DNA of 64,000 nt. Source: Sphingobacterium pedocola (GTDB taxonomy: Bacteria; Bacteroidota; Bacteroidia; Sphingobacteriales; Sphingobacteriaceae). The stretch spans positions 202,648 to 266,647 of the forward strand of contig NZ_MU158689.1 in NCBI RefSeq assembly GCF_015209965.1, in the 5' to 3' direction. Positions 12,801 to 29,243 of this stretch are shown one piece after another. Position numbers and translations under genes: made by a program. The notes under the pieces are model-generated. The model ran no database searches. It was not told the DNA's origin and saw only the letters and a program-made list of their open reading frames with translations. The stretch's first letter is position 1. Every line of letters begins with the position of its first letter.

Positions 12801-13194
12801 TTATTTTAAGCGGTCGTCGCTTAATAACAGTACAGCATATGGCTCGGGTGGTACGGTCGACGCGTATCAGACCGATTACGAAGGTAAATGGATGACAGCC
12901 GGAGACGAAGCGCATACCGATGTGCCATCCCTTATCTATCCGGCAAACCTAAGTCGGTCTAGATTATACATCCAGTCCGATCGGTTGATCGAATCGGGAA
13001 GCCATATCTATTTTCAGGATGTGAATATTTCGTATGATATGGATCTTTCGTCGGGCATCAAGATGCGGACATACTTTTTTATCAACAATCTTGGTATGAT
13101 TTGGCGAAAGAACAGACAAGGTATCGACCCGAATGCTTTAGGCGGGTACCCGATGCCGATAACTTATACCCTAGGTTTAAACTTTAATATATAG
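9829..13194 (+). CDS. SusC/RagA family TonB-linked outer membrane protein
   Basis: This large beta-barrel importer is energised by TonB. From the first ATG it has 1121 residues, but the signal peptide core (ICILFFIVVLFSDAQAQ) only begins near residue 67, so the true start may be a later codon such as Met29. The extra front part overlaps a REP-like inverted repeat (9895-9964). A carboxypeptidase-regulatory-like domain follows (about 85-155, GGEVRSAADGQTIEGASV), then the TonB-box region EEVEVVSTGYQ, the plug (about 170-290), and the barrel, ending in an aromatic-rich strand with LNFNI. It has no STN domain and no neighbouring FecR, unlike the other two SusC proteins here. It is the first gene of the susC-susD-tlpA operon. 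Confidence 0.93.
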   Translation: MRKLRKGESYALLRSVIPSQFKDPSKVGMTKKKETLPCHAEDTRYLLSRLFRSSANNKFLSGVLRICILFFIVVLFSDAQAQSGRTLGGEVRSAADGQTIEGASVQTGNKYTLTDKEGRFSITAPQPKGTLKIHHIGYVAQTVAYDETTTPLEIRLEPNEQQIEEVEVVSTGYQRIPKERATGSFVQIDNELLNRRISTNLLDRLDGIVPGMQFRSSSSGGYNPSLIEIRGRNTISAGSAPLIILDDFPYQGDINAINPNDVLSISVLRDAAAASIWGARAGNGVIVIQTKKGSNKARAEVNIANNVTIGNKVDLYSANRPMLSSTEYIEVEQFLFDKGAYNTRIRNGFQGISPAVSIFQQTKDGTISLEESTLLINNLKEQDVRNDLLRFYYKHPVSYQTSVGISGSSAAHRYYIAAGNDLQNGNVVNDKRNRTTLTNNHSLLFFADRLHVDINTFYAFDRQKSGHAIASFYPYDRMQDNERNAMAWTSASGLSLSFTENVNEQLLDWRYRPLDELNLGANRTNDDRFLRVNTAVSYNLFDKVKVKLLYGYQQGESSSLLQNDLDRFYTRNLINTFSKIESGVLQYNLPQGEIWDSANTSRGTHTGRLQADYKVKFFRNDLDLFGGFEVMSDNRSVATNILYGVDAEKLTNRNTDIDFNRAYPYYYNNTTATIPNGFNQVRHTDRFVSYYVNGLYNVRDRYMLSFSLRKDESNLFGVDANQKGVPLWSVGAKWDLKREQFFNLDVVSNLKLKGTFGYTGNIDKSTSRYLTAQSASFLTNLYGQLYANVINPPNPMLRWEKIRNSNLGLEMSLWNNSINLEIERWEKSGQDLISKIDLAPQAGLASFIGNAASTASEGIDVSLHTRNMQRSRFSWDSFLLMSKSKSLVSEIFIEPGSNYNVVSSPAQNFIEGNPYWSIYSFPYKGLDEAGNPIGFLLGEESKEYPAILNSTERDGIKLHGSSIPTVFGSFRNQFTYRSWSLSFSLLYKMGYYFKRSSLNNSTAYGSGGTVDAYQTDYEGKWMTAGDEAHTDVPSLIYPANLSRSRLYIQSDRLIESGSHIYFQDVNISYDMDLSSGIKMRTYFFINNLGMIWRKNRQGIDPNALGGYPMPITYTLGLNFNI
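9895..9964. repeat. REP/BIME-like inverted repeat inside the 5' end of susC
   Basis: 9895-9918 (GATCCCTCCaaagTCGGGATGACA) and 9940-9964, read on the other strand (GATACCTC and then TCGGCATGACA), are inverted copies of one element about 24 bp long, separated by 21 bp. The pattern resembles dispersed intergenic palindromes of Bacteroidota genomes. It lies in codons that would precede the signal peptide. Confidence 0.6.
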
Positions 13195-13198
13195 CGCC

Positions 13199-14560
13199 AT
13201 GCGAATTTTTTATATAATCATAACGTGCGTATGCATGATCTCCTGTACGAAATCAGATTTCTTAGCAGAGAAACCGAGATCTTCGATGTTGGTTCCATCT
13301 ACGGTGGAAGATTACCAATTGCTATTAAATAACCCACTTATTAACGAAGGCACTACGGGTTTGGGTCTAATTTCTTCCGACGATGTGTATTTCGATCAAG
13401 AGTCGCTAGAGGCTATCAGTCCACTGGTACGCCATGTGTACCTCTGGGATCGGGATATGTATGCAGGCGAACAGCAGGTTAAGGACTGGAACAATGGATA
13501 CTTTGCAGTTTTTATTGCAAACAATGTGATCGAAGGGATAGAAGATGTAATTGGAACGACCAAAAACAAGCGGGACGTATTAGGTCAGGCTTTCTTTAAA
13601 AGGGCGTATGCGTATTTTGATTTGGCAACGCATTTTTGTGAATATGTTGACGACGCTAATGATAGCCAATTGGGTTTACCATTGCGAACGACGGCCGATG
13701 TGAATGTCATTGAACAGCGCGCTTCATTGGAGCAAACCTTCGAACTGATCAAATCTGATCTGTTACAGGCTAAAGACCTACTGATACATAGCGTTCCGGT
13801 GCAGGATAAGTATAGACCTTCCGTGTTGTCCTGCTTTGCGCTGCTTTCCCGTATGGAATTATACCGCGGTAATTACGAAGGTGCGGAGATTTATGCAGAT
13901 TCTTGTCTAAAGCTTTCAGATGGCCTACTTGACTATAATAACATTGATCTCACAGTTTCGAATCCGTTTACAAGTGATCATGTAGAAATTATTTATAAAA
14001 CTACCTGTCCAATGTACGTAGAGCTCTACGGTGCGGATTTTTCTCCAGCTCGTGTAAATCCACTATTGATCGAACTGTTTAATGCAAATGAACCCCGTAG
14101 AAGATTGTATTTTGGAACAGATAGCCGCGGATTGAGCTATGCTAATTACAGTTATACAGGTTTTTCCACATTTCCATTTACCGGCCTCGCCACCGACGAG
14201 ATTTACTTGATCAAAGCCGAATCGGCCACTCGAAACGGTAACCTTTCCGAAGCGCAAGAAAAATTCGAAAATTTCCTACGCATGCGATATAGCGATATAC
14301 CCTACGATCTTGAAGAGCTGAGTAAGGATAAGGAAAAAATGATGGATATGGTATTGTTAGAACGCAGAAAGGAACTGGTGTGGCGCGGAAGCCGATGGTT
14401 AGATCTCAAGAGACTAAATGCGGAAGGATATTCAATTTCCGTGCGTAGACAACAAGCAGTTGGGGCCGAGTTTTCACTGCTTCCAAATGATCCCAAATAT
14501 ATTTTTTCTATACCGGTAAGCGAAATTAACCGAAGTGGAATTACACAAAATTTAAGATAA
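13199..14560 (+). CDS. SusD/RagB family nutrient-binding lipoprotein
   Basis: This 453-residue partner of the SusC gene starts 4 nt after its stop. A lipoprotein signal peptide ends at MISC (Cys16). The protein has the SusD layout: an N-terminal STVEDYQLLLNNP helix, TPR-like repeats (FFKRAYAYFDLATHFCEY, and LLSRMELYRGNYEGAEIYAD at about 220-240), and the C-terminal block LLERRKELVWRGSRWLDLKRL typical of RagB/SusD. It should sit on the outer surface as the lid of the SusC barrel and bind the ligand. The ligand is unknown. Confidence 0.92.
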   Translation: MRIFYIIITCVCMISCTKSDFLAEKPRSSMLVPSTVEDYQLLLNNPLINEGTTGLGLISSDDVYFDQESLEAISPLVRHVYLWDRDMYAGEQQVKDWNNGYFAVFIANNVIEGIEDVIGTTKNKRDVLGQAFFKRAYAYFDLATHFCEYVDDANDSQLGLPLRTTADVNVIEQRASLEQTFELIKSDLLQAKDLLIHSVPVQDKYRPSVLSCFALLSRMELYRGNYEGAEIYADSCLKLSDGLLDYNNIDLTVSNPFTSDHVEIIYKTTCPMYVELYGADFSPARVNPLLIELFNANEPRRRLYFGTDSRGLSYANYSYTGFSTFPFTGLATDEIYLIKAESATRNGNLSEAQEKFENFLRMRYSDIPYDLEELSKDKEKMMDMVLLERRKELVWRGSRWLDLKRLNAEGYSISVRRQQAVGAEFSLLPNDPKYIFSIPVSEINRSGITQNLR

Positions 14561-14561
14561 C

Positions 14562-16079
14562 ATGCGGAACAAAATCATAATCGGATTAGTAGTATACCTG
14601 TTATTAGCAACGGGAGCAGCCAGCGCGCAGAAATATGCCAAACTTTCTGTGCGGCAAGATAATAATACAAAATTTTATATAGAGGAGATAGCCTTTACCA
14701 AGCTCAATAAGCAGATCAACTCAAGATCGAGTACAGATTTATCTGAATTTACTTTGAAACTGGATAGTGGGGTGAGCGATATCATGCTACCTGTAGATGA
14801 TCAATTTTGCTATTATTGGCTAAGATACTCCGTCAAGGATACTACGGGAAAATATGTTGCAAATCAAAATACAGATGCACCTGAAGGTCGGCCATTTATT
14901 TTGTTGGAGAACGATTCATTGGAATTATCTTATGAGTTTTTCGACGGTAGAAATCCGAAGATAGCTTATTTAAGGTGTTTTTTCGATGGGAAAAATAAGG
15001 ACTTCTACAGATTTCAATTTAATCCATTTTTTGTGGATCAAGCTGGGGACGAATTGCATGCTCGATTACTGGATAAAACACGATATTACATACCCAACGA
15101 ATTTATTAGACTAGCTGACTTATATGTAAGAAAGGTGCAAGCTGCTTCTTCATCGATACTTGAATTTTTGAGAATTGATAGTTTAGTAAAAGAGATGTTG
15201 GTTGCGGATCATGTGACACATGTGTTGGACAGAACATATTCCATGATGCATAGTTACTATTTAGCAAATCCTGAAATAACCAAGTTAGAACTTGCGAAGT
15301 TATACGATGATATCGATATGTTAGTATATTTAGAAGGTTTCTCGCCTATAGGACTAGAGCGTTCGTATTACACTGCGAACGTGATGTACAGAAAGTTGAT
15401 AAGGCAGATGAACTTAAGATCTTATGACGCCGCATGCAAGTTTGATGAGGATTTGTTGTATTACACGGCCGACGAAATGTTCAATGAAATTATTAAAATC
15501 AAGAACGAACGTTTACGTTCAAAATTAATCAGAGAGTGGTACGTTCAATTGTATAATATTGGAAAGCTAGATATTGATGATTATCGGGAAAGATTAGGCG
15601 AAATTTTGCTGGCACCGTACAATGAAATTTTGGCGGTAAATAGTGCAGCAGTGGAATATGAGTTTGTCGATATGGACGGGAAGTCAATAAAGCTTTCGGA
15701 TTTTAGAGGCAAAGTCGTCTTATTGGATTGGTGGTTTACAGGTTGTACGGGTTGTAAGATACTGGCTCCCAAAATTAAGCAGGCCAAGCAGCTCTTTACA
15801 GAAAATCCCGATATTGTGTTTGTCTCGATTAGTATTGATAAACATTTTGACGTGTGGAGTAGATCTCTTGAAAGCGAGGAGTATACATCGTCGGAAGCGA
15901 CAAATTTGTACACTGGTGGACTGGGTAAAGGGCATCCCATGATTGCTGACTTTGATATCATTGGCTATCCTAAACTAATATTGATCGATAAAAATGGTAT
16001 GCCGGTGGCGGAGCATGTACCAGACCCAAGGGTTGATGTTGAGGGTTTTGTCCATTTTCTTAAAACATACATAGAATAA
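14562..16079 (+). CDS. exported TlpA-like thioredoxin-fold protein
   Basis: The 505-residue protein has a signal peptide (VVYLLLATGAASAQ) and starts 1 nt after susD, so it belongs to the same operon. The C-terminal third is a TlpA/AhpC-TSA thioredoxin domain starting at VDMDGKSIKLSDFRGKVVLL, with the redox motif CTGC at about 395-398 and the cis-proline region GYPKLILIDKNG. The first 350 residues are an uncharacterised helical region. A periplasmic disulfide role is likely. Such genes often accompany stand-alone SusCD pairs in Sphingobacteriaceae. It ends at a bidirectional terminator. Confidence 0.85.
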   Translation: MRNKIIIGLVVYLLLATGAASAQKYAKLSVRQDNNTKFYIEEIAFTKLNKQINSRSSTDLSEFTLKLDSGVSDIMLPVDDQFCYYWLRYSVKDTTGKYVANQNTDAPEGRPFILLENDSLELSYEFFDGRNPKIAYLRCFFDGKNKDFYRFQFNPFFVDQAGDELHARLLDKTRYYIPNEFIRLADLYVRKVQAASSSILEFLRIDSLVKEMLVADHVTHVLDRTYSMMHSYYLANPEITKLELAKLYDDIDMLVYLEGFSPIGLERSYYTANVMYRKLIRQMNLRSYDAACKFDEDLLYYTADEMFNEIIKIKNERLRSKLIREWYVQLYNIGKLDIDDYRERLGEILLAPYNEILAVNSAAVEYEFVDMDGKSIKLSDFRGKVVLLDWWFTGCTGCKILAPKIKQAKQLFTENPDIVFVSISIDKHFDVWSRSLESEEYTSSEATNLYTGGLGKGHPMIADFDIIGYPKLILIDKNGMPVAEHVPDPRVDVEGFVHFLKTYIE

Positions 16080-16100
16080 TATTTGATAGGATTGATTTTA

Positions 16101-16136
16101 AAAAGAATAGCACCCGGCTGCGGGCGCTATTCTTGT
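16101..16136. terminator. bidirectional intrinsic terminator
   Basis: AAGAATAGCACCCG (16103-16116) pairs with CGGGCGCTATTCTT (16121-16134) over 14 positions with one mismatch and a 4-nt loop. Flanking A/T runs on both sides serve the thioredoxin gene on plus and the DUF6520 gene on minus, which converge here. Confidence 0.85.
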
Positions 16137-16140
16137 CGAT

Positions 16141-16560
16141 TTAATTCTGATAAAGTGCAAGCCCCGATTGTGCATGAGGCTCGATCCAGCCGTTGCTTTC
16201 ATACTCTTCTATTTGAGTAGGAGTGTAAGATTCTTGTTCCGGCACATTCTCCATACCTTCTGCCGTGATTTGATACGTACAGTTTTTGCTGTCCGTCTGA
16301 TTGCAGTTTAAAGACGGATTTACTGTATTACGCGGACTAAAGGAAGCTCCCTTATTGACCAAGAAGTTTGGTGCAAGTACTGCACTCTTTTTAGCATCTG
16401 CTTTTTCTTCGACATCTTCCTTGTTATCAAAAGACTGTGTTGTTACTGCTAGACCTAATAGTGCCACACCGAGCACGGTTAAGTTTTTTGTTGTGTTTTT
16501 AATTTTTGCTATCATTTTAGTAAACTTAAAACTGTATAACTTTTTTTGTTTTTCCATCAT
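16141..16560 (-). CDS. DUF6520-type small exported protein
   Basis: The protein has up to 139 residues. A hydrophobic export segment (NLTVLGVALLGLAVTTQSF) is followed by an acidic/lysine stretch and a mature part with a close cysteine pair (CNQTDSKNC) that could form a disulfide. The overall layout matches the DUF6520 family of Bacteroidota, whose function is unknown. The true start may be Met16 (MIAKIKNTTKN), because the residues before it lie outside a normal signal peptide. It is convergent with the SusCD-TlpA operon; DUF6520 genes and such operons are often found together. Confidence 0.7.
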   Translation of the reverse strand: MMEKQKKLYSFKFTKMIAKIKNTTKNLTVLGVALLGLAVTTQSFDNKEDVEEKADAKKSAVLAPNFLVNKGASFSPRNTVNPSLNCNQTDSKNCTYQITAEGMENVPEQESYTPTQIEEYESNGWIEPHAQSGLALYQN

Positions 16561-16855
16561 TGCCGCAGCCGTGTAGCCTTTATGACCCTGTTAGTGCTAC
16601 GGTATGCTTTCCGTATTTCGATCCCCTGACTGCTACAGCCGTTGAACCACTTTGTCTTTAGCGCACCGGAACATCCGGGAACAATGCAAATTTTCTGTTA
16701 TGATATTTCTTTTTCATTTTGTATGCTTTATTTGAGAAAGCAATACATTACGCCTCCCCGCAATTCAAAATTAGAAACAGAAATCAGATGATGGTTGGGC
16801 TATTGCGCCAATGAATTGGGATTCTATTGCAACGAATTGGGATTATAACCTGGAT

Positions 16856-17386
16856 TTAAAACCGCTGTCGGAGAAACTCTTCGCTGGTGTCCAAAAATTT
16901 GGCAAGCTCTCGGCGCGTAATCAAGGGTATGACCTGCGAAAACTTTTCCCGAAACAACGTTAACCGGTCGCCTTTCGATATCTCCAACAGATGTGTCCTG
17001 AAATCCTTTTCCTGCTGCTGTTGTGCCAGTAGCTCATCGTATAGCTTGATCAGGTCGGGAGAAAGTTTCAACAGGCTGTACAGCGCATCGCGCTTTAGCA
17101 ACAATACCGCTGAGGCCTCGATCGCCTTTAACTGTACATTATTACGTTTTAGCGGTACGATAATAATACCCGTTTTCAAAATATACCGCTTCGGTATGTG
17201 TTTTTCATATTTGCCAATAGTACCTACGCCAACGAAGTAGATGTCGCCCAGCTTAGCAGGTAGGTGTTCACCGGTGTCGAGTTCGATGTGGATAAAATAA
17301 TCCAATAGGGTAGGCAGTTCGGCAAGCCAATCTGGGTATAAATCGGACAAATAATCACCGAATAGGGTTTCCATGTTCTCATTCAT
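16856..17386 (-). CDS. short Crp/Fnr-like transcriptional regulator
   Basis: The protein has 176 residues. The N-terminal 110 or so look like a degenerate cyclic-nucleotide-binding beta barrel (ELDTGEHLPAKLGDIYFVGVG and on) without the phosphate-binding cassette residues. The C-terminus LITRRELAKFLDTSEEFLRQ matches the turn-and-recognition part of the Crp HTH but stops very early at RF, so the wing is missing. It is transcribed away from the peptide-kinase operon, with a 302-nt shared control region, and is a plausible regulator of it. The start at 17386 gives an in-frame N-terminus without extra residues. Confidence 0.7.
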   Translation of the reverse strand: MNENMETLFGDYLSDLYPDWLAELPTLLDYFIHIELDTGEHLPAKLGDIYFVGVGTIGKYEKHIPKRYILKTGIIIVPLKRNNVQLKAIEASAVLLLKRDALYSLLKLSPDLIKLYDELLAQQQQEKDFRTHLLEISKGDRLTLFREKFSQVIPLITRRELAKFLDTSEEFLRQRF

Positions 17387-17438
17387 ATTTAGATGTGTTG
17401 TTAGGCCCGAAATATACGGAATGAGCGGTATCGAATCC

Positions 17439-17494
17439 TAATTTTGGTACATATAGCATATAAGAGGGATATCGGTGCAAAAATCAGTGATATC
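17439..17494 (+). promoter_or_regulatory. candidate promoter and 21-bp-spaced repeat before the peptide operon
   Basis: TAATTTTG at 17439-17446 fits the -7 consensus TAnnTTTG. GATATC occurs at 17468-17473 and again exactly 21 bp later at 17489-17494. A spacing of two helical turns is the layout used by LytTR-type regulators. GATATC is itself a palindrome, so chance is possible. A related GATATT lies at about 17588. Confidence 0.3.
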
Positions 17495-17688
17495 TTACCC
17501 TTTCTACGCTTCGCGACCGTTTAAAATGTTGCTTAAAACGTATTCAGGCTATTCTTCCCACTTTTTTCTTTTATGAAATCTGTCCGTGATATTTGCGTAT
17601 CAGCTGATGAGAAATAGTAAAAATCGTACGGTTTGACGGGAGTGATCTGACCCGTTTGGTTCCAGGTCAAAACAAAAATTCAAGTAGT

Positions 17689-17808
17689 ATGGAAAATGTA
17701 CTGAATGTTTTGGATGTGTCGGTCTTCATAGGCCGTGACATGGCGGAGATGATCAAAGGGGATCCGATCCTCGACGATCTGATCGACGCTGAAAAATGCT
17801 GGGTTTAA
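17689..17808 (+). CDS. 39-residue acidic peptide, candidate signal/precursor peptide
   Basis: The ORF starts MENVLNVLDVSVFIGRDM and ends IDAEKCWV. The peptide is strongly acidic (9 Asp/Glu against 3 Arg/Lys), has no signal peptide, and has a single cysteine three residues from its C-terminus. A hydrophobic N-terminal part is followed by an amphipathic acidic half (KGDPILDDLIDAEK). It is the first gene before an acyltransferase-like gene, a histidine kinase and a LytTR regulator, all on the same strand. A strong hairpin at 17841-17894 separates it from the enzyme gene, as often seen between abundant precursor peptides and their modifying enzymes. A modified peptide pheromone or RiPP precursor is the best guess (inference). 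Confidence 0.55.
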   Translation: MENVLNVLDVSVFIGRDMAEMIKGDPILDDLIDAEKCWV

Positions 17809-17840
17809 TCATCTTAATCGGGTGAGTTAACCGCAAGATT

Positions 17841-17894
17841 TGTCCAAAAAGGGTGGAAGAGTTTATGGATATACGAAATCCACCTTTTTGGACA
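17841..17894 (+). promoter_or_regulatory. long hairpin between the peptide and the acyltransferase-like gene
   Basis: TGTCCAAAAAGGGTGGA (17841-17857) pairs with TCCACCTTTTTGGACA (17879-17894), a 16-bp stem with a single bulged G and a 21-nt loop. It lacks a U tract after the stem, so it is more likely an RNA-stabilising or partial-attenuation element than a full terminator. Confidence 0.65.
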
Positions 17895-17925
17895 TCTCTT
17901 ATTGACCAACTATAAATAAATTGTT

Positions 17926-18843
17926 ATGAACAACACGAATAATAACGAGGTGGTGCGTGCGCTCTGGTACGCGAATGTATTGCAGCACTTTCCAGATAAA
18001 AGTATCCTAGAATTGCAGGATGGGTTTGAAATATGGATGGCCAACAAAAAGGAATATGCCGATCTGTATAACAAGTGCACGGTGGCTGATTTATGTAAAC
18101 AACCGGCTGTTTCTTTAAACACGGGCTCGGGAATATGGCTCACCTTCCACTTTGGACCGTACCGTCTACTCCCACGGATATTAATTGCCTCGGGGTATAA
18201 AGTTACACTGTTGGCATCTGCACGTATCATAGCGCGCGAACAACAATGGTATGAGGAAGAAATGGGTCGTGCAAGGTTAAGGACAGATGTCTTCGACTGT
18301 ATTGTAGCCGATAATAATATGGTACTCAAACAGGTATTGACGCATGTGAAACAGCGTAATCGCTGGGTGCTTATTTATTTGGATGCCGATGAAGGTCTGC
18401 AGCAGGATGCGGTAAAACTCGACGGAAGCTTGTTAAAAGTGCCGTTGCATAAGGGGCATGTCTACTGGCGAACCAATATCTTAAAACTGGCAGAAAGGTT
18501 TAAGATAACCGTCGCGATCGGTCATCTAACCAAGAGTGAAATAGACGATAAGTGGAGAATAGATGGCCCACATTCGATTGGCCATGAAGACTCAACCTGT
18601 TGCGACGCATATCACGTGCGGTGTAGCACACAGTTAGTGCAGACGTTTCAACAGATGATCAAAAACAACTGGCTAGCCTGGGAGAACTGGGCATTGCTGC
18701 ATCGGTACCAGAAGGAAAAGATCGCACCTGTGCCATTGGAGTTGAAGCAACCGGTCTTGATGATGCCAATGTTGCTCCGCGGTAAACCGTTCTTTTTCGA
18801 TATGCGCGGGCAACAATTTTTTGAAATAAAATCCATAGAATAA
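17926..18843 (+). CDS. LpxL/HtrB-like (LPLAT superfamily) protein with altered active site
   Basis: The 305-residue protein has the layout of the lipid A / lysophospholipid acyltransferase fold: motif I in GIWLTFHFGPYRLL (about 69-82), a mid block VLKQVLTHVKQRNRWVLIYLDADEG (about 133-157), and the KVPLHKGHVYWRTNILKLAE glycine/helix block. In LPLAT enzymes the catalytic pair is H(X4)D/E. Here His75 is kept but position 80 is Arg (HFGPYR). So the enzyme either uses another acid (D153/D155 of LDADEG are candidates) or has lost acyl transfer. It lacks the N-terminal membrane anchor of true LpxL. It sits between a peptide gene and a kinase, so it may modify the peptide rather than lipid A (inference). 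Confidence 0.7.
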   Translation: MNNTNNNEVVRALWYANVLQHFPDKSILELQDGFEIWMANKKEYADLYNKCTVADLCKQPAVSLNTGSGIWLTFHFGPYRLLPRILIASGYKVTLLASARIIAREQQWYEEEMGRARLRTDVFDCIVADNNMVLKQVLTHVKQRNRWVLIYLDADEGLQQDAVKLDGSLLKVPLHKGHVYWRTNILKLAERFKITVAIGHLTKSEIDDKWRIDGPHSIGHEDSTCCDAYHVRCSTQLVQTFQQMIKNNWLAWENWALLHRYQKEKIAPVPLELKQPVLMMPMLLRGKPFFFDMRGQQFFEIKSIE

Positions 18844-18885
18844 CTATTTTATTATTAATTTAACGATTCACCGATATCTAAATCA

Positions 18886-19902
18886 ATGCATCAACTTAAA
18901 GACTGGTTCTTATCGCAGAGAGACGGCTTGTTTTTCCGGGCATCCTTGTGGCTGTTAGTCATACTAGCTACGCTGGTCGGAACAACACTTGAGGTCTTAC
19001 ACAGGTTTACCTTCGTTACGTTTTTAGCATATGCATTTCCTTATTTATTCGTCTTTTTAATATGGTTTTGCATAGGCTATTTCGTCGTGCATCGAAGGTG
19101 GATGAAATGGCTTTTATTGCCCTTGTCCGTTATCCTGATCTTAGCCACGATCGAAGCGACCTTTCAATATTATTATCACCTGCTTCCACGCTGGGATATT
19201 GTTTTCTTTTCAGAACTGACCGACGCACGAAGGATAATATTTAATACGAGAGTAGTTACAGCCAATCTGATCCTGATGGCAGCCGTATCGATAGACTATT
19301 TCTTCTGGCAGCGGTTTGTACTGCAGTTGGAATTTGCACGGGTAAAGAGTAGACTGAAGATGCAAGAGCATAGCCAGCTGCTGTCCGGACATTTCATCTC
19401 CTCACTATTAGATATGGCAGAGGATAACCGGTCAATCAGTACGGCAGATACATTGATTTTTTTTCGGTATATCTATACGATGCTTGCTCAACGTAAAACA
19501 TTGGTAGCTTTGGAGGAGGAGTGGAAACACGTAAAGTTGTTGATGCAGATCGCCAGCCACCGCCGGTTTGAAGTACATGGAGAAAACCTCCTCAGTAAGC
19601 GGATGTGGAATAGATCCGTGCCTGCACTGACCCTGATGACTTGGTTGGAAAATGCGATTAAGTACAGCCCGGATAACTTAATGCAACCGATTTACCTGGA
19701 GTGGATGCTGCTGGAAGGAAAACTCCAGCTTATGATTCGCAATAGCGTGTCTACTGCGGTATCGCCGGGAACTGGTAAAGGGATGGCCTTGGTGAAACAG
19801 CTTTACGGAGAGTTTCTGCCAAATGATGCTGCTATCGTTTACGAAAACCAGAACGAGCACGAGTTTACTGTAATTTTAACCTTAACACATAATTATGCCT
19901 AA
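18886..19902 (+). CDS. LytS-like sensor histidine kinase
   Basis: The 338-residue protein has four likely membrane helices (about 18-36, 43-68, 75-95, 123-140), a coiled linker, and a divergent HisKA_7TM/His_kinase core. The phospho-acceptor is probably His169 in LLSGHFISSLLD, where family members normally read NPHFLFN. The N-box is LENAIKYSP (about 254-262) and the G-box GTGKGM (295-300). The ATP-lid region is short. Its stop overlaps the start of the response regulator by 8 nt, so the two are translationally coupled. The membrane-embedded sensor with almost no periplasmic loop resembles AgrC/ComD-type peptide receptors. Confidence 0.88.
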   Translation: MHQLKDWFLSQRDGLFFRASLWLLVILATLVGTTLEVLHRFTFVTFLAYAFPYLFVFLIWFCIGYFVVHRRWMKWLLLPLSVILILATIEATFQYYYHLLPRWDIVFFSELTDARRIIFNTRVVTANLILMAAVSIDYFFWQRFVLQLEFARVKSRLKMQEHSQLLSGHFISSLLDMAEDNRSISTADTLIFFRYIYTMLAQRKTLVALEEEWKHVKLLMQIASHRRFEVHGENLLSKRMWNRSVPALTLMTWLENAIKYSPDNLMQPIYLEWMLLEGKLQLMIRNSVSTAVSPGTGKGMALVKQLYGEFLPNDAAIVYENQNEHEFTVILTLTHNYA

Positions 19903-20623
19903 ATTTTCTTTGTTGGTTGTCGACGACAACGCTAACGATGCGACGAAGTTAGTAGAAATATTGGGGGAGTTTGATGAGATAGATGATATAAATGTAGTAA
20001 AAGATGGATTTGAGGCTGCCCGCCTCATAAAAAAGCAAAATTTTGACATGGTTTTTTTGGATATTGAGATGCCCGGCATATCCGGAATAGAACTTTACAG
20101 TTCGCTGCCGCTGGATAAGCGGCCAGCGCTGGTATTGGTCACGGCACACGAAGAGTTTGCGCTTCAAGGGTTTGCCATTGATGCGATGGATTTTTTGGTG
20201 AAGCCAGTGACGTACGAGGCGGTAGCTAGAGCATTGATCAAAGTGTTTTCACGCCTCAATTTTTCCATAACCATAAAAACCTCGGTCGAACGCAGCTATA
20301 TGTTCTTTCTGATGCAGGGAGGTATTTATAAACAGGTTATTTTCAAGGATGTGATATACATAGCCTCACAGGGCAATTACGTCGACATCATCGGCCGGGA
20401 TTTCGAACTTACCGGGCGATATACGATGAAAGAAATGGAACTGGAGGTGCCTGCTTCATACTTTCTCCGTGTGCATCAGAGCTTTATTGTGAACATGAAT
20501 TTTGTGGACCATCTTGTTGGGCAGCATTTGTTTCTAACAGAGGGTCAGATAGAGAAGGTGCCGATCAATCGCGAATCACGTAAGAAGCTCATCAGACGAG
20601 GGAAAGATAGAGGGGAGGACTGA
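19895..20623 (+). CDS. LytTR-family response regulator
   Basis: This 242-residue transcription factor has a receiver domain with acidic pair D10/D11, phospho-acceptor D56 (FLDIEMPG), T83 (LVTAHEE) and K103 (FLVKPVTYEA). A C-terminal LytTR DNA-binding domain (about 135-237) contains IASQGNYVDIIGRD and SYFLRVHQSFIVNMNFVD. Every key residue is present, so it should be active. LytTR regulators bind paired 9-10-bp repeats two turns apart. Its start lies inside the kinase gene (8-nt overlap). Likely targets are its own operon and perhaps the adjacent cassette. Confidence 0.94.
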   Translation: MPKFSLLVVDDNANDATKLVEILGEFDEIDDINVVKDGFEAARLIKKQNFDMVFLDIEMPGISGIELYSSLPLDKRPALVLVTAHEEFALQGFAIDAMDFLVKPVTYEAVARALIKVFSRLNFSITIKTSVERSYMFFLMQGGIYKQVIFKDVIYIASQGNYVDIIGRDFELTGRYTMKEMELEVPASYFLRVHQSFIVNMNFVDHLVGQHLFLTEGQIEKVPINRESRKKLIRRGKDRGED

Positions 20624-20698
20624 CAGTCAGATATAAATATCAAAAATTTTATTAAACCCAGCCGCTTTCGGAAGTGGCGAAAAACGTACTAACCAGTT

Positions 20699-20980
20699 AT
20701 GAAAAGTTTAGTAAACCTTGTCCTTCAGGTCTTGAAGGATACCTATTTATTATTAGGCGAAATCAAACAACATATCGGACACCGTAGGCTTCCATTGGAG
20801 AAAAGACGGCGCTGGACCAAGTGGGAGGTGATCCAGGAGCTTGGCATGAGTGAGTCTACATACAATCGCCATATCAAATCGGGCTTGCTTAAGCCGATGC
20901 GACTTACCGGTGAGGACAACTATTTTGAGGAGGATCTGCAGGAGGCGTTCGAGCAGAGCCGGCTCAAAGGCAGGATCTGA
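20699..20980 (+). CDS. small helix-turn-helix (MerR/excisionase-like) protein
   Basis: The protein has 93 residues. An N-terminal helix is followed by a basic stretch (KRRRWTKWEV) and a MerR-like HTH: VIQELGMSESTYNRHIKSG, then LLKPMRL and an acidic C-terminal helix. It lies 75 nt after the LytTR gene, with a CTTTCGGAAG hairpin in between. Small proteins of this type act as excisionases or local regulators. Its stop touches the stop of the coiled-coil gene on the other strand with no gap. Confidence 0.75.
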   Translation: MKSLVNLVLQVLKDTYLLLGEIKQHIGHRRLPLEKRRRWTKWEVIQELGMSESTYNRHIKSGLLKPMRLTGEDNYFEEDLQEAFEQSRLKGRI

Positions 20981-21310
20981 TTACAGTCTTACAGTATACG
21001 TTAGCAGGGGTACAGCTTTATGTAGGAGCCGTAACAGGTCTTGTGTGCTTTGTATCGGCGTATGTAGGCATGCTATCGCCTGGTGTAGCTCATCTATCAC
21101 CTGCTGTATGCGCGTTAGCAAGGTATGCAAGTGCGCTATGTGGGCAGATACGTCTTTTACACCTTCCGATAAGTCGCCTAACGGGGTGTGTCTCCCTGCT
21201 ACCGCATGGTGTAGACAGGATGCAACATGCTGTACGTGTGCTATACACGAGGGTAGGCTACATAACAGCTTGTGTGTCTTTTCTAGCATGGGCTGTAGTT
21301 CGTGTAGCAT
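20981..21310 (-). CDS. 109-residue all-coiled-coil protein
   Basis: From the ATG at 21310 (a GTG at 21328 would add six residues), almost the whole chain fits one unbroken heptad pattern. Numbered from the GTG, 'a' positions 15, 22, 29 and onward to 106 are L, L, I, A, V, L, V, I, L, I, I, I, L, V. The 'd' positions 11, 25, 32, 39, 53, 60, 67, 74, 81, 88, 102 and 109 are L, V or I. It is rich in His (13 in the longer form) and has 4 Cys. Such a pattern over 14 heptads is very unlikely in a shadow frame, so this strand is coding and the plus-strand frames are shadows. No family is recognised; it could be a filament, spacer or phage-structural protein. Confidence 0.6.
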   Translation of the reverse strand: MLHELQPMLEKTHKLLCSLPSCIAHVQHVASCLHHAVAGRHTPLGDLSEGVKDVSAHIAHLHTLLTRIQQVIDELHQAIACLHTPIQSTQDLLRLLHKAVPLLTYTVRL

Positions 21311-21554
21311 ACGTTGAATGTACGCCACCGTATGCTGTATGCGGTGTTTTTTAGGTCTTTTTTAGATTTATCCTGTCTGAAAAATGTCTCATCGTGTCAA
21401 TTTATGCCAAATCGTGTCAAAAGTCGCCGTGGGCCACATTGCATACCTACGTTTGTATCGTTCGGTCAGCTCGCGAGGACTACGGAACGGCAAGGATAGG
21501 TGAGAGGTGAATGTCGGCTTCATGGATCACCCTGTTCACGAAAAAAATAAAAAA

Positions 21555-22184
21555 ATGGCAATTAAAGCAAAAGCACTCATCAGTTTTTCCCGGATGAAAG
21601 ACGATGAACTCGTAGTAACAGCCAATACCATTGTTGGCGCTATGACAGACAACAGTAATTACCCCGCTCCGGCACCTGTACTCGATGATGTCCAGGTCTT
21701 GTTGGATGACTTTACGGGAAAACTGGCGATATCCCGCAAGCGGGGTTCGCCGGAGGATACGGCAATTAAGAATGACAGCAAGGAACCACTTGCTGAGGCG
21801 CTGCAACAGCTGGCCTATTATGTGAATTCGGTGGCCAAGGGAAGGCTTGCTGTTCTATTAAGCTCAGGATTTCCGACGAACAATATGGGCTCGGCAGCGT
21901 TGGTGCCGCTGATGGTGGAGTCGGTGAAAATGAGTGATGGAAGGCAGTCGGGACAGGCGCGGTTAAACTTTGCAGCACAGCGGGGGGCGCTGATCTACGA
22001 GTACCAGTACCGGATGATCACACAACCGGAGTCGGAATGGAGCGACCGCCTCACGACGACGTCGAGCCGCAACAATATACTCGCTCCGCTCGAGGTCGGA
22101 AAGCGCTATGAGGTACGTGTACGTGCCGTTAATACGCAGGGTGCAGGCGACTGGAGCCAGACCGCTAGCATTTTAGTGCGCTAG
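21555..22184 (+). CDS. fibronectin type III domain protein
   Basis: I choose the ATG at 21555 (MAIKAKALISFSRMKDDEL), which removes a GTG-started extension and leaves 209 residues. The N-terminal half is helical (LAEALQQLAYYVNSVAKG). The C-terminal half (about 115-209) is one fibronectin type III fold with the hallmark ALIYEYQYRMI strand, LEVGKRYEVRVRAVNTQGAGDWS and a final strand. There is no signal peptide. Proteins of this kind recur in Bacteroidota beside DUF5675 and holin-like genes, which fits here. The role is unknown, possibly structural or adhesive. Confidence 0.75.
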   Translation: MAIKAKALISFSRMKDDELVVTANTIVGAMTDNSNYPAPAPVLDDVQVLLDDFTGKLAISRKRGSPEDTAIKNDSKEPLAEALQQLAYYVNSVAKGRLAVLLSSGFPTNNMGSAALVPLMVESVKMSDGRQSGQARLNFAAQRGALIYEYQYRMITQPESEWSDRLTTTSSRNNILAPLEVGKRYEVRVRAVNTQGAGDWSQTASILVR

Positions 22185-22185
22185 T

Positions 22186-22246
22186 GACTGGTGATTGGTG
22201 ACTAGGGGTTAGTGATTGGTGACTAGGGGTTGGTAGTTAGAGGTTA
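22186..22246 (+). repeat. short tandem repeat in the spacer
   Basis: GTGATTGGTGACTAGGGGTT occurs twice in tandem with small changes, followed by GGTAGTTAGAGGTTAGG. Related TTAGGGGTTAG-type text recurs at 22780-22812 and 22872-22900. Confidence 0.6.
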
Positions 22247-22261
22247 GGAGATGTTTCTTCT

Positions 22262-22348
22262 CGTCTTTGCGAGGAGGAACGACGAAGCAATCTTTTTATG
22301 GATTGCTTCACTCCACCTCATATCCCCAAGCTTCGGTTCGCAATTACG
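22262..22348. repeat. REP-like palindromic element
   Basis: The core is GAAGCAATC (22284-22292), an 8-nt loop, then GATTGCTTC (22301-22309). Outer arms CGTCTTTGCGA and TCGCAATTACG extend the palindrome. This is the 'TTGCGA ... GAAGCAATC' type of dispersed repeat in Bacteroidota. Confidence 0.75.
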
Positions 22349-22387
22349 GTTTAGGTCTTAATACTCAATACTTAATACTCACTACTA

Positions 22388-22792
22388 ATGAATACAGCAA
22401 CACTCTATCTCCGACGGAAATACGGAGAGAAGGGAACAAATGGAACCATCACCTACAAAGGTGAACACATTTGCCATGCCATAGAATTACCGGATCGGAA
22501 TAACCTGCGGCGACTGAGCTGTATCCCGGAAGGGCGATATAAACTGGAGAAGCGCATCTACCCGAAGAACGGGGAACAGATCGGTATCCCGAATGTACTG
22601 GGGCGCGAAGCGATCCTGATCCATCCAGCCAATAACGCGATGAAAGAGTTACATGGCTGCATCGCTCCGGTTACAACGCTCACCGGGGAAGGAACCGGCG
22701 ACCACAGCCGTAAGGCGTTGGAAAAGCTCAAAGCACTGGTGTACAGCCTATGGGATATGGAAGCAGAAGTGTTTTTGGTGATTAGGGGTTAG
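22388..22792 (+). CDS. DUF5675 family protein
   Basis: The protein has 134 residues and no signal peptide. It has the DUF5675 features: an early TLYLRRKYGEKGTNGTI strand pair, AIELPDR, SCIPEGRYKLEKR, and the signature EAILIHPANNAMKELHGCIA. The His/Cys arrangement (IHPAN, LHGCIAP) recalls peptidoglycan-acting or lysis-associated proteins, though the family has no proven function. The start is the ATG just after a leader with the repeat AATACTCAATACT. It lies between two REP-like blocks and upstream of two small membrane proteins, so it probably belongs to a lysis-like cassette. Confidence 0.8.
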   Translation: MNTATLYLRRKYGEKGTNGTITYKGEHICHAIELPDRNNLRRLSCIPEGRYKLEKRIYPKNGEQIGIPNVLGREAILIHPANNAMKELHGCIAPVTTLTGEGTGDHSRKALEKLKALVYSLWDMEAEVFLVIRG

Positions 22793-22804
22793 TGACTAGG
22801 AGTT

Positions 22805-22946
22805 AGGAGTTAGAACTGTTATTCTCGTCATCGCGAGGAGCATAGCGACGCGGCGATCTTAGAGGGGGCAGGCGTTAGGGGTTAGAAGACTAGGAGTCAG
22901 AAGTGTTATTCTCGTCTTGCGAGGAGCGTAGCGACGCGGCAATCTT
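22805..22946 (+). repeat. duplicated spacer with REP half-elements
   Basis: 22805-22860 and 22891-22946 are direct repeats of about 56 bp, both containing TTATTCTCGTC, GCGAGGAGC and TAGCGACGCGGC. The second copy has an opposite arm at 22963-23001 (AAGATCGCGTCACC and then TTCGCGATGACG), making a large imperfect palindrome. Confidence 0.7.
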
Positions 22947-23048
22947 TTGTCTTTTGCAAAATAAGATCGCGTCACCCTCGTGCCTCAGGTTCGCGATGAC
23001 GTTGTAACGGTCATACATCTCAATACTCAATACTCAAACTTAATACTA

Positions 23049-23288
23049 ATGAAAAACATTATAAACAAAATAAGCCGTGCAGTACAGGTGATACTGCTGG
23101 CTCCGATTAAATTGCCGGGAAAGGCATTAAAAATTATTAAATATGTCGCGGTGGGTCTGGGAGTGCTGGAGTCCGTAATGGATAATGGGAAGCAGGAATC
23201 TGAGACCGGGGATCAGGAAGCAGAAGTCCGAGGTCAGAAGGATAGCGAGGTAGACGAAGAAGAAAGGCCGGAGTGTGATGAAACTTAA
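23049..23288 (+). CDS. small membrane-associated protein with acidic tail
   Basis: 79 residues from the ATG at 23049, which directly follows the same ACTCAATACT/ACTTAATACTA leader as the DUF5675 gene. The first 45 residues are basic and hydrophobic (LLAPIKLPGKALKIIKYVAV), fitting an amphipathic or membrane segment. The last 30 are very acidic (QEAEVRGQKDSEVDEEER). It overlaps the next gene by 11 nt. The family is not known; together with the holin-like neighbour it may help perturb the membrane (inference). Confidence 0.65.
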   Translation: MKNIINKISRAVQVILLAPIKLPGKALKIIKYVAVGLGVLESVMDNGKQESETGDQEAEVRGQKDSEVDEEERPECDET

Positions 23289-23445
23289 CGACGTGCGCAT
23301 CAGTACGCTGGGCGGTACCTTTTGCTCGGTATGGGCTTCTATCTCACTAGGAGGGATCGCAGAAACTGTTGTACTCTCGACCGTAGGTGCGATAGTCAGT
23401 TTCTTCATCAGCGGCTGGCTTGGAAGAATAAGAAAAAAAGAATAG
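23278..23445 (+). CDS. holin-like 55-residue membrane protein
   Basis: A 55-residue frame overlaps the end of the previous gene. A short polar start (MKLNDVRISTLGGTF) is followed by two hydrophobic stretches (about 14-27 and 30-47, VVLSTVGAIVSFFISGWL) and a basic end (RIRKKE). Size, GG turn and basic tail are those of small phage-type holins. It ends 10 nt before a perfect terminator stem, closing the cassette. Confidence 0.7.
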   Translation: MKLNDVRISTLGGTFCSVWASISLGGIAETVVLSTVGAIVSFFISGWLGRIRKKE

Positions 23446-23455
23446 ATAAGACCGT

Positions 23456-23487
23456 AACGCGATCCCTTAGAAAGGATCGCGTTTTTT
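23456..23487 (+). terminator. intrinsic terminator closing the small-gene cassette
   Basis: AACGCGATCC (23456-23465) pairs perfectly with GGATCGCGTT (23474-23483) around an 8-nt loop, followed by TTTT. Confidence 0.92.
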
Positions 23488-23692
23488 CAGTTGCACGAGA
23501 GTACATCGCAATTCTTAGGGTAATGTTACAATGTTGGGTGGTTTTACGGTTTTATTTGTATTTTTTCTGTTATTGTAGGGTTTTCTTAAAATAAATCCTT
23601 TTTTTTGCTAACTTGCTTGTAGCATAGAGTCAAATCTCTGATTCTAGGAGTTGCTGCCAATCTAAATTGTCAACGATCAACAAATTAAGATT

Positions 23693-24223
23693 ATGGATGC
23701 AGATAAACTGTTGTTTGATAAGTACTACCGTTCGTTATGTTACTTTGCGTGGCAAATGGTACAGGATGAAAGCCTAGCAGAAGATTTGGCTCAAGATGCG
23801 TTTGTGAGTTATTTTCAACATAAATTGACAGTGTCGGAAGATGAACCGGCAATCAAAGCGTACCTGTACTCCTCTATAAAATTTGCGGTATATAACCTCA
23901 ATCGGAAAAACAATACAGTCAAAAAATTCTGGGAGCGTAACACGTATCAGGAGTCGGATGATATCGATTATGAACATCATATTATTCGTGCTGAATTTAT
24001 GGCCGCTATTCATACCGTGCTAGCCAAGCTTCCGGATGCGTGCCGAAATATTATGTCAATGAGTTACGTAGAGGGACTTTCTAATGCGGAAATCGCAGAT
24101 CAGCTGCAATTGAGTATGAATACGATTAAAACACAAAAGAAAAGAGGACTCCAAGTTCTTCGTGAAAAACTGCATCCAGATTATTTTTTGGTATTAATAG
24201 CTGTATTTCTATACGATTTTTAA
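23693..24223 (+). CDS. ECF RNA polymerase sigma-70 factor (Bacteroides expansion family 1 type)
   Basis: This 176-residue sigma factor has region 2 at about 5-75 (LFDKYYRSLCYFAWQMVQDE, then AEDLAQDAFVSYF) and region 4 at about 110-165 (LPDACRNIMSMSYVEGLSN, AEIADQLQLSMNTIKTQ). This is the standard regulator of a Sus locus: it is freed by the FecR protein encoded 55 nt downstream when the SusC transporter is loaded. It should drive the susC-susD-metallohydrolase-DUF4302 genes that follow. Confidence 0.93.
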   Translation: MDADKLLFDKYYRSLCYFAWQMVQDESLAEDLAQDAFVSYFQHKLTVSEDEPAIKAYLYSSIKFAVYNLNRKNNTVKKFWERNTYQESDDIDYEHHIIRAEFMAAIHTVLAKLPDACRNIMSMSYVEGLSNAEIADQLQLSMNTIKTQKKRGLQVLREKLHPDYFLVLIAVFLYDF

Positions 24224-24278
24224 AAAAATACATTTTTTTGTCACCCCATTTCCTGATTTAAGTTTCTTAGCTTAGATT

Positions 24279-25418
24279 ATGGATACTAACCCCTTAAAAA
24301 TAGCTGACATTTTAGTTAAAATGTTTAAGAACGAGTCTATCTCCGAAGATGAAAGACAGTTTTTAGACGTTTGGTTAAAGATGGATTCTCGGAATAGGGA
24401 TCTTTTTGATGAGTTGCTAACTAGCAAGACGGAGTTAGATGGCAGTTGGTTGGAGCGTATCGATGAAGAGAATGCGTGGACGCAAATCAACAATAAACGA
24501 AATCGAGGTACAAAAAAGCATTTTTCTTGGATGGTTGCAGCGTCTATCGCCTTGTTGTTTTCTTTAAGTTTTTACCTGTTTTTCAATAATAGCGATTTCG
24601 ATTCCCAGCCGCGCTTCGTGAAACGTGCAGATACCAAGTATACCAATGATATTTTGCCTGCAAACCTCGGCGCTAAGATCGTGTTGGCAAATGGAAAGGA
24701 GGTAAAAGTGGACGACACACTTACTGTTCCTCAGAATGGGGGCTTACTAGCCGAAGATCAGATAACCGCTTCCATTGCCGATGTAGCGGTGTTGAATACA
24801 CTAGTGGTTCCCACGGCAAAATTTTTTAAACTGACGTTGTCCGACGGAACTATTGTGTGGGTTAACTCCAATAGTGAATTAAAGTTTCCTACCCAATTTA
24901 ACAATACGGAAAGACGTGTATTTCTTTCTGGAGAAGCGTATTTCGAAGTAGCTAAAGATGTTTCTAAGCCTTTTTATGTAGAGACGGAAGATTTAAAAGT
25001 AAAAGTGCTGGGTACGCATTTCAATGTGTCGACTTACGGTGCAAAAAGCAAGACGTCTTTAAAAGAAGGAAGTGTAGAAGTGAGTAAGGACGCGCAATCT
25101 GTTATTATTTCGCCGGGACAAAGTGCTGAATGGAGTACGGAAGGCCTCAAAGTGAGACGTGCCGATTTGCAGAAAGACTTAGCTTGGAAGAACAACGAAT
25201 TCTATTTTAAGGGGGATAATATCATCAACATCGCCAACCAATTAAAGCGTTGGTATGATTTGGAGGTTGTATTTTCTAAAGAAGTATCGCTCACTGATAC
25301 ATATTCGGGTGAAATACGACGGGATGTCCGCCTTTCCGAAGTACTGAAGATGTTGGAATTTGTGAGCGAATTAGATTTTAAACTGGATAAGAATAAATTA
25401 TTAATAACAAAAAAATAG
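24279..25418 (+). CDS. FecR family anti-sigma factor
   Basis: The protein has 379 residues. A cytoplasmic N-terminal sigma-binding part (1-80) is followed by one membrane helix at about 83-103 (SWMVAASIALLFSLSFYLFF), then a periplasmic FecR domain (about 175-275, KLTLSDGTIVWVNSNSELKF, RRVFLSGEAYFEV) and a C-terminal DUF4974/STN-like domain (LKRWYDLEVVFSKEV, then ITKK). It holds the upstream sigma factor and receives the signal from the SusC N-terminal STN domain. Confidence 0.94.
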   Translation: MDTNPLKIADILVKMFKNESISEDERQFLDVWLKMDSRNRDLFDELLTSKTELDGSWLERIDEENAWTQINNKRNRGTKKHFSWMVAASIALLFSLSFYLFFNNSDFDSQPRFVKRADTKYTNDILPANLGAKIVLANGKEVKVDDTLTVPQNGGLLAEDQITASIADVAVLNTLVVPTAKFFKLTLSDGTIVWVNSNSELKFPTQFNNTERRVFLSGEAYFEVAKDVSKPFYVETEDLKVKVLGTHFNVSTYGAKSKTSLKEGSVEVSKDAQSVIISPGQSAEWSTEGLKVRRADLQKDLAWKNNEFYFKGDNIINIANQLKRWYDLEVVFSKEVSLTDTYSGEIRRDVRLSEVLKMLEFVSELDFKLDKNKLLITKK

Positions 25419-25449
25419 ATTATGGTATAAACGGACAAAAAAGAAAAAA

Positions 25450-25473
25450 ACAGGAGTGTTGGCGCACCCCTGT
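25450..25473 (+). other. hairpin between fecR and susC
   Basis: ACAGGAGTG and CACCCCTGT pair (9 positions, one mismatch) in the 114-nt gap. A similar hairpin lies in the same place in the second locus (59217-59244). Confidence 0.5.
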
Positions 25474-25532
25474 AAGACATTAAGTTAAATTAAGAATACT
25501 AACCCCTAACATCAACTCAATTACTCAAATGT

Positions 25533-29219: not shown

Positions 29220-29243
29220 TGGAAAATTTTAGAAAGTAAAGAA

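Follow-up and report, generated by a model that had tools for sequence, protein, structure and literature searches.

The window analysed here is a 64,000-nucleotide stretch of the Sphingobacterium pedocola genome (assembly GCF_015209965.1, contig NZ_MU158689.1, positions 202,648 to 266,647), and all coordinates given without a genome or locus handle are counted from its first letter. Positions 17689 to 20623 carry four consecutive open reading frames (ORFs) on the + strand, encoding a short cysteine-containing peptide, a lysophospholipid acyltransferase-like (LPLAT-like) protein, a membrane histidine kinase and a LytTR response regulator. An initial annotation, made from the sequence alone, had proposed that the four ORFs form an undescribed agr-like signalling operon; their coordinates and strand were confirmed, and the operon is conserved. 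We read the locus, with a probability of roughly 55%, as a peptide-signalling operon of a kind resembling ribosomally synthesised and post-translationally modified peptide (RiPP) systems, conserved in Sphingobacterium and its relatives. The four genes are as follows.

17689-17808, + strand: Cys peptide, precursor-like, 39 residues with the C-terminus EKCWV; its family is conserved, with selection seen in relatives.
17926-18843, + strand: LPLAT/LpxL-like protein of 305 residues, the proposed peptide-tailoring enzyme; distant relatives lie in radical SAM (rSAM) and YcaO RiPP clusters.
18886-19902, + strand: probable LytS-type membrane histidine kinase of 338 residues.
19895-20623, + strand: LytTR response regulator of 242 residues, assigned by Pfam.

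The peptide was followed across related loci by means of a motif, a short ORF ending in [KR]-Cys plus four to eight residues. The motif was defined after viewing the same loci in which it was counted, namely 80 distinct LPLAT genes, each 700 nucleotides or longer and with enough upstream sequence, taken from 86 hidden Markov model (HMM) hits. A motif ORF, the conserved peptide on which the proposed operon depended, lies upstream of the LPLAT gene at 57/80 loci, compared with 23/470 regions that precede other ORFs (200 residues or longer) of the same loci and 68/1600 mononucleotide-shuffled regions; real regions contain 3.6 ORFs each, the two controls 2.3 and 2.8. Cys followed by exactly five residues was found at 41/80 loci, 5/470 control regions and 15/1600 shuffles. 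Reduced to a single locus for each group of LPLAT genes sharing at least 50% identity, the set had the motif at 38/55 and Cys plus five at 27/55, the LPLAT-free controls giving 23/469 and 5/469.

Within the 57 motif loci, the Cys is followed by five residues in 39, six in 14, seven in 3 and four in 1; L149 (Sphingobacterium puteale) is an example of the full core with five. Longer tails were found by reading: nine residues in loci L102, L105 and L107, and twelve to fifteen in L119 and L120. In a scored search, a peptide was assigned to 68 of the 86 HMM hits, some of which are duplicates or fragments; several of the remaining loci have a Cys near the C-terminus with no Lys or Arg ahead of it. 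Read by eye, many leaders contain the stretch P-[LI]-[ST]-hydrophobic as well as acidic residues, a pattern that is not clear in the window copy. No signal peptide was seen on the peptide by eye.

The ratio of nonsynonymous to synonymous changes (pN/pS) was 0.18 in 14 pairs chosen by peptide identity (third-position changes, 138/219), a choice that favours low values. Repeated with 13 pairs chosen by LPLAT identity, it was 0.27 (157/266); the window peptide is in neither set of pairs. An origin of the short ORF by chance was considered and rejected, given the upstream excess of the motif over the controls and the low pN/pS in relatives. The peptide is conserved, coding and probably modified.

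The LPLAT family profile, at a cut-off of E 1e-10, matched 36/201 genomes in a family sample, 7/395 in a phylum sample and 61/300 in an order sample, the three samples overlapping. A separate scan of named genomes returned 11 LPLAT loci, all from Sphingobacterium. Near 81 Bacteroidota LPLAT-like anchors, the kinase family is present at 69/81 and the LytTR family at 67/81 (64 on the same strand), and the LPLAT gene does not occur constantly on its own, a pattern that would have undone the proposed operon. Other neighbours of these anchors are SusD (50), SusC (42), a Crp-like gene (38) and MauE (29). The genome that contains the window (G000) has two more LPLAT-like loci, at C5:12037-12972 and C1:1355522-1356391; the latter (L124), the third of the genome, has a kinase and a LytTR gene and no recognised Cys peptide. 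Cassettes of peptide and LPLAT gene without kinase or regulator were seen in L038, L039 (G007:C16), L044 (G013:C1), L050, L134 and L136. Some are in tandem, some have broken LPLAT frames, and two protein families that match nothing in Pfam often come after them.

The regulator matches Response_reg (1.4e-18) and LytTR (PF04397, 7.4e-14), in agreement with its first assignment. The kinase has about four hydrophobic stretches in its N-terminus, which fit the four membrane helices originally described. No Pfam kinase model passed for the window copy, in which alignment shows the His, Asn and Gly motifs. PF06580 is matched by sibling kinases encoded next to LPLAT genes, for example G000:C5:11286-11516 at 5.9e-15. 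Residues were counted in the 50 complete systems, those in which each of the four parts was recognised. The phospho-His is present in 50/50 and the kinase Asn in 49/50, and the phospho-Asp and Lys of the regulator are each present in 50/50, bearing out the key residues noted for the regulator.

In the same 50 systems, distances between peptide cores correlated with distances between LPLAT-like proteins (0.27), kinase sensors (0.23), regulators (0.18) and kinase catalytic halves (0.17). In partial Mantel tests against the core, given the catalytic half, the LPLAT-like protein gave 0.214 and the sensor 0.168 (both at p 0.003, the lowest value that 300 permutations allow); the reverse partial, the catalytic half given the sensor, was 0.064 (p 0.12), and the sensor given the LPLAT-like protein was 0.106 (p 0.02), all small effects from which shared descent is only partly removed. 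The covariation of peptide and sensor that had been anticipated is therefore present in weak form.

The LPLAT-like protein of the window has no Pfam match. Lip_A_acyltrans (PF03279) matches 6/28 of its relatives with E up to 0.1 (best 3.2e-4), and a single hhalign comparison of the family profile with LpxL-type proteins of related genomes gave a probability of 87 and E 3.7e-6. Sequence searches of the PDB gave weak matches: the best of one search was an LPLAT (5oce, E 2), and a second search had an acyl-CoA dehydrogenase as its best match (E 0.14). His75 and Asp153 are each present in 50/50 complete systems. At the level of sequence, the protein is related to PF03279 and LpxL. Separate PF03279 genes were present in 20/20 genomes searched.

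Five genomes of the phylum sample outside the family have LPLAT matches, three of them beside RiPP genes and two beside a membrane LytTR protein. In the latter two, L119 and L120, the LPLAT gene is divergent from a gene whose membrane-like product carries a LytTR domain (7.7e-19 and 2.7e-22, respectively); ahead of the LPLAT gene, L119 has a single Cys peptide and L120 an identical pair. The LytTR domain is at the C-terminus of these membrane-like proteins (L119:2246-3235, L120:7425-8435), a one-protein format of sensor and regulator. In L121, three Cys precursors stand in tandem beside an rSAM/SPASM protein and a protease of the M50 type, the latter related to those of daptides and epipeptides; L122 has an rSAM/SPASM protein, one Cys peptide and an M50-type protease with the same relationship. 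L123:1079-6294 is a RiPP cluster of the thiazole/oxazole-modified microcin (TOMM) type, with SagB-, SagC- and SagD-like proteins and two precursors that terminate in CC, alongside an LPLAT-like gene. It is mainly because RiPP genes adjoin L121-L123 that we read the LPLAT-like protein as probably acting on ribosomal peptides. The operon places a small precursor gene beside a putative tailoring gene, as RiPP systems do, the tailoring role being suggested by the homologues in RiPP clusters.

Two predicted RNA elements flank the peptide ORF.

17636-17668, + strand: H-type pseudoknot in the peptide 5' leader, with stems 17636-17640/17651-17655 and 17644-17649/17663-17668.
17842-17893, + strand: hairpin between the peptide stop codon and the LPLAT gene, a possible attenuator (z -3.6 in the window).

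The hairpin recurs with a mean z of -3.4, and z is below -2 in 41/56 loci, the set being those of the 68 peptide loci with at least 30 nucleotides between the genes. The plain folding energy of the 5' leader is not unusual (mean z -0.5); the pseudoknot became visible solely when crossing stems were searched. In an alignment of 11 Sphingobacterium sequences, which are chosen and related, 119/121 pair cells are standard and two-sided changes occur at 6/11 pairs; four rows needed a one-position shift within the loop, L152 and L156 each break one pair, and L150 (no such element) and L154 (no recognised peptide) were left out. A free search for crossing stems reached a score of at least 16 in 21/68 loci and 1.6% of shuffles, and a stricter search a score of at least 28 in 12/68 loci and 1.1% of shuffles. 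A pattern built from the sequences it recovers gave 18 matches in 16/93 genomes of the genus, the reversed pattern none; 14 of the 18 lie directly upstream of an LPLAT gene, and those of L205, L206, L215 and L220 are not beside one. Since the changes compensate each other, we favour a structured RNA over a DNA site for these repeats, which could also be the latter. Rfam gave no match in 16000-24500.

In agr systems, a short precursor, with its Cys a few residues before the end of a hydrophobic core, is combined with a membrane kinase and a LytTR regulator; the agr precursor extends past the Cys core as a C-terminal tail, and its Cys is followed by four residues (Cys+4). The operon likewise contains a short Cys precursor, a membrane kinase and a LytTR regulator. 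It differs in that its peptides usually lack a C-terminal tail and usually have five residues after the Cys, and in having a LytS-type kinase, an LPLAT-like protein and a Gram-negative host. AgrB (PF04647) had no match in G000, in a search that matched 1/14 control genomes, below the cut-off. The system is agr-like in layout and may work like agr; it is not a member of agr, because the genome has no AgrB match, a C-terminal tail is usually lacking and the kinase belongs to another class.

Other known systems share parts of the operon. Its LPLAT-like protein resembles LpxL/HtrB (PF03279) in profile and in the invariant His and Asp, but in the LPLAT family the acid of the LpxL HX4D/E motif is mostly replaced, and the gene partners are a peptide and LytTR. 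With the LytS/LytTR systems of Bacteroidota it shares a PF06580-type kinase, as seen in siblings, and a LytTR regulator, whereas its own kinase is divergent and is preceded by a dedicated peptide and LPLAT gene. Three rSAM/SPASM or YcaO RiPP clusters contain distant LPLAT-like homologues; in Sphingobacteriaceae, in contrast, the LPLAT-like protein is the sole candidate maturase recognised. Lipidated ribosomal peptides, some from Bacteroidota, are described as DAG-RiPPs in a preprint (PMC12636315), where they depend on the lipoprotein pathway and a multinuclear non-haem iron-dependent oxidative (MNIO) enzyme; the terms LytTR, histidine kinase and lysophospholipid are absent from its main text. 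No description of the gene set was found among the matches listed in the open-access literature, most subscription papers lying outside this scope, and to that extent the operon is indeed undescribed.

What supports the preferred reading is that the gene set is conserved and syntenic, that relatives show coding selection, that the catalytic residues are conserved in kinase and regulator, and that distant homologues occur in a RiPP context. The short precursor would consist of a leader, often with the P-[LI]-[ST]-hydrophobic stretch, an acidic linker and a C-terminal K-C core. Because of the hairpin, it would probably be made in excess of the downstream proteins, and the pseudoknot ahead of it may control its expression. 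The LpxL-related LPLAT-like protein would modify the peptide; acyl transfer, either to the core Cys or by way of it, would be the likeliest chemistry, with S-acylation and (thio)lactone formation as candidates. The product would reach the envelope and be detected by the LytS-type kinase, leading to phosphorylation of the LytTR regulator, which would activate the operon and perhaps the neighbouring cassette of SusCD, thioredoxin and small exported protein genes. LytTR-mediated peptide quorum sensing is known mainly from Gram-positive bacteria. If the reading is true, Bacteroidota would possess a peptide language in the form of this conserved Cys-peptide system of Sphingobacteriaceae, and the action of LpxL-derived enzymes on ribosomal peptides would add a novel type of RiPP tailoring. 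We hold the most detailed version more tentatively, and consider it rather doubtful: a new diderm ribosomal peptide signal, in which an acid-less LpxL-derived enzyme acylates or cyclises the C-terminal Cys core (giving a ring of six residues, should the C-terminus be joined to the Cys), sensing occurs via the SusCD/LytS side, the pseudoknot provides RNA control, and the same enzyme family tailors rSAM and YcaO RiPPs elsewhere in Bacteroidota.

Several observations weigh against a peptide signal of this kind, and some of them bear on other explanations. A Cys peptide was recognised at none of L113, L116, L117, L124 and L146, and L214 has an LPLAT gene and no recognised peptide. The window peptide itself ends in KCWV, with two residues after the Cys, and falls outside the motif; the Cys is available near the C-terminus, as had been pointed out, but the copy is atypical of a family that mostly has five residues after it. 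Because relatives continue past KCWV (KCWVDLP, KCWVEIP, KCWVVVPEL), the window peptide may be shortened, perhaps degenerate. The peptide of a relative, L218, ends in KC. In the kinase G box, the last Gly alone is invariant among five columns, and given the LPLAT-like protein the regulator also follows the peptide core (0.092, p 0.047).

No kinase was seen at 12/81 LPLAT anchors: six in L038 (twice), L044, L050, L134 and L136, one at a contig end (L033) and five in the out-of-family loci. A rival reading is an effector RiPP, for instance a modified antimicrobial, or a structural lipopeptide, which would not be a signal and whose production the two-component system would only regulate. In its favour are the kinase-free peptide-LPLAT cassettes of Sphingobacterium (L038, L044) and the three distant homologues whose RiPP clusters showed no kinase. 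However, recurrent clusters for immunity or export were not recognised among the labelled neighbours, those that were scanned; core distance tracks the kinase sensor more than the catalytic half, and linkage to LytTR occurs in two formats. We judge an effector to be fairly unlikely.

The acid of the HX4D/E motif is a further difficulty for peptide signalling by a modified product: no Asp or Glu occupies its place in 28 aligned rows, and in 50 rows there are 1 Glu and 35 Arg. The LPLAT-like protein may therefore not be an acyltransferase; of the proposed LpxL/HtrB-like maturation protein, the profile relation stands and the catalytic acid is mostly missing. Nor was an exporter or processing protease recognised among the recurrent neighbour clusters, unlabelled neighbours not being scanned. 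Together with the apparent lack of a signal peptide, these points would agree with an unmodified small protein acting as a tuner of the kinase or of an LPLAT-like pseudoenzyme, in a system that senses the state of the envelope. Against such a tuner, the mostly fixed distance from Cys to C-terminus, the invariant His and Asp of the enzyme and the RiPP context of its homologues suggest chemistry on the peptide, and we consider it less probable still than an effector. That the short ORF is solely a regulatory leader (an upstream ORF), its translation controlling the downstream genes through the hairpin directly after it and the pseudoknot ahead of it, is very improbable in view of a pN/pS of 0.18-0.27 over the whole ORF, a C-terminal Cys core conserved across genera and several precursor copies at distant loci. 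Overall, the interpretation first put forward for the locus is partly supported, with RiPP-like peptide signalling as the reading that we prefer.

The surroundings of the operon contain the following features.

9829-13194, 13199-14560 and 14562-16079, + strand: SusC-like protein, SusD-like protein and thioredoxin-domain protein, conserved neighbours.
16141-16560, - strand: small Cys protein, DUF6520-like (E 0.057, below the cut-off), probably exported as judged by eye.
16856-17386, - strand: Crp-like regulator, divergent, of the cluster present in 38 loci (81 anchors).
17599-17608, no strand assigned: palindrome ATCAGCTGAT, in the intergenic region that separates the Crp-like gene from the peptide.
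20699-20980, + strand: small HTH_17-like protein (HTH_17 at E 0.006, below the cut-off).

The first three genes match Plug (2.4e-13, SusC-like), SusD-like_3 (8.6e-22) and Thioredoxin_8 (6.5e-11) in Pfam, and are perhaps targets of the regulator. Relatives have similar small proteins at the place of the DUF6520-like gene. The Crp-like copy of the window has no clear Pfam match; one relative matches HTH_Crp_2 weakly (0.012). In an alignment of upstream regions, the palindrome is similar in several close relatives and is a possible operator. Small helix-turn-helix (HTH) genes follow the LytTR gene in many relatives (clusters 8 and 11, with 23 and 14 loci). Downstream of the operon, 21552-23445 encodes an Fn3-domain protein, a DUF5675 protein and two small proteins, and relatives often carry DUF6266 or DUF5675 genes in this position. 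Further downstream, 23693-30830 contains genes for an extracytoplasmic function (ECF) sigma factor, a FecR protein and a second SusC/SusD pair.

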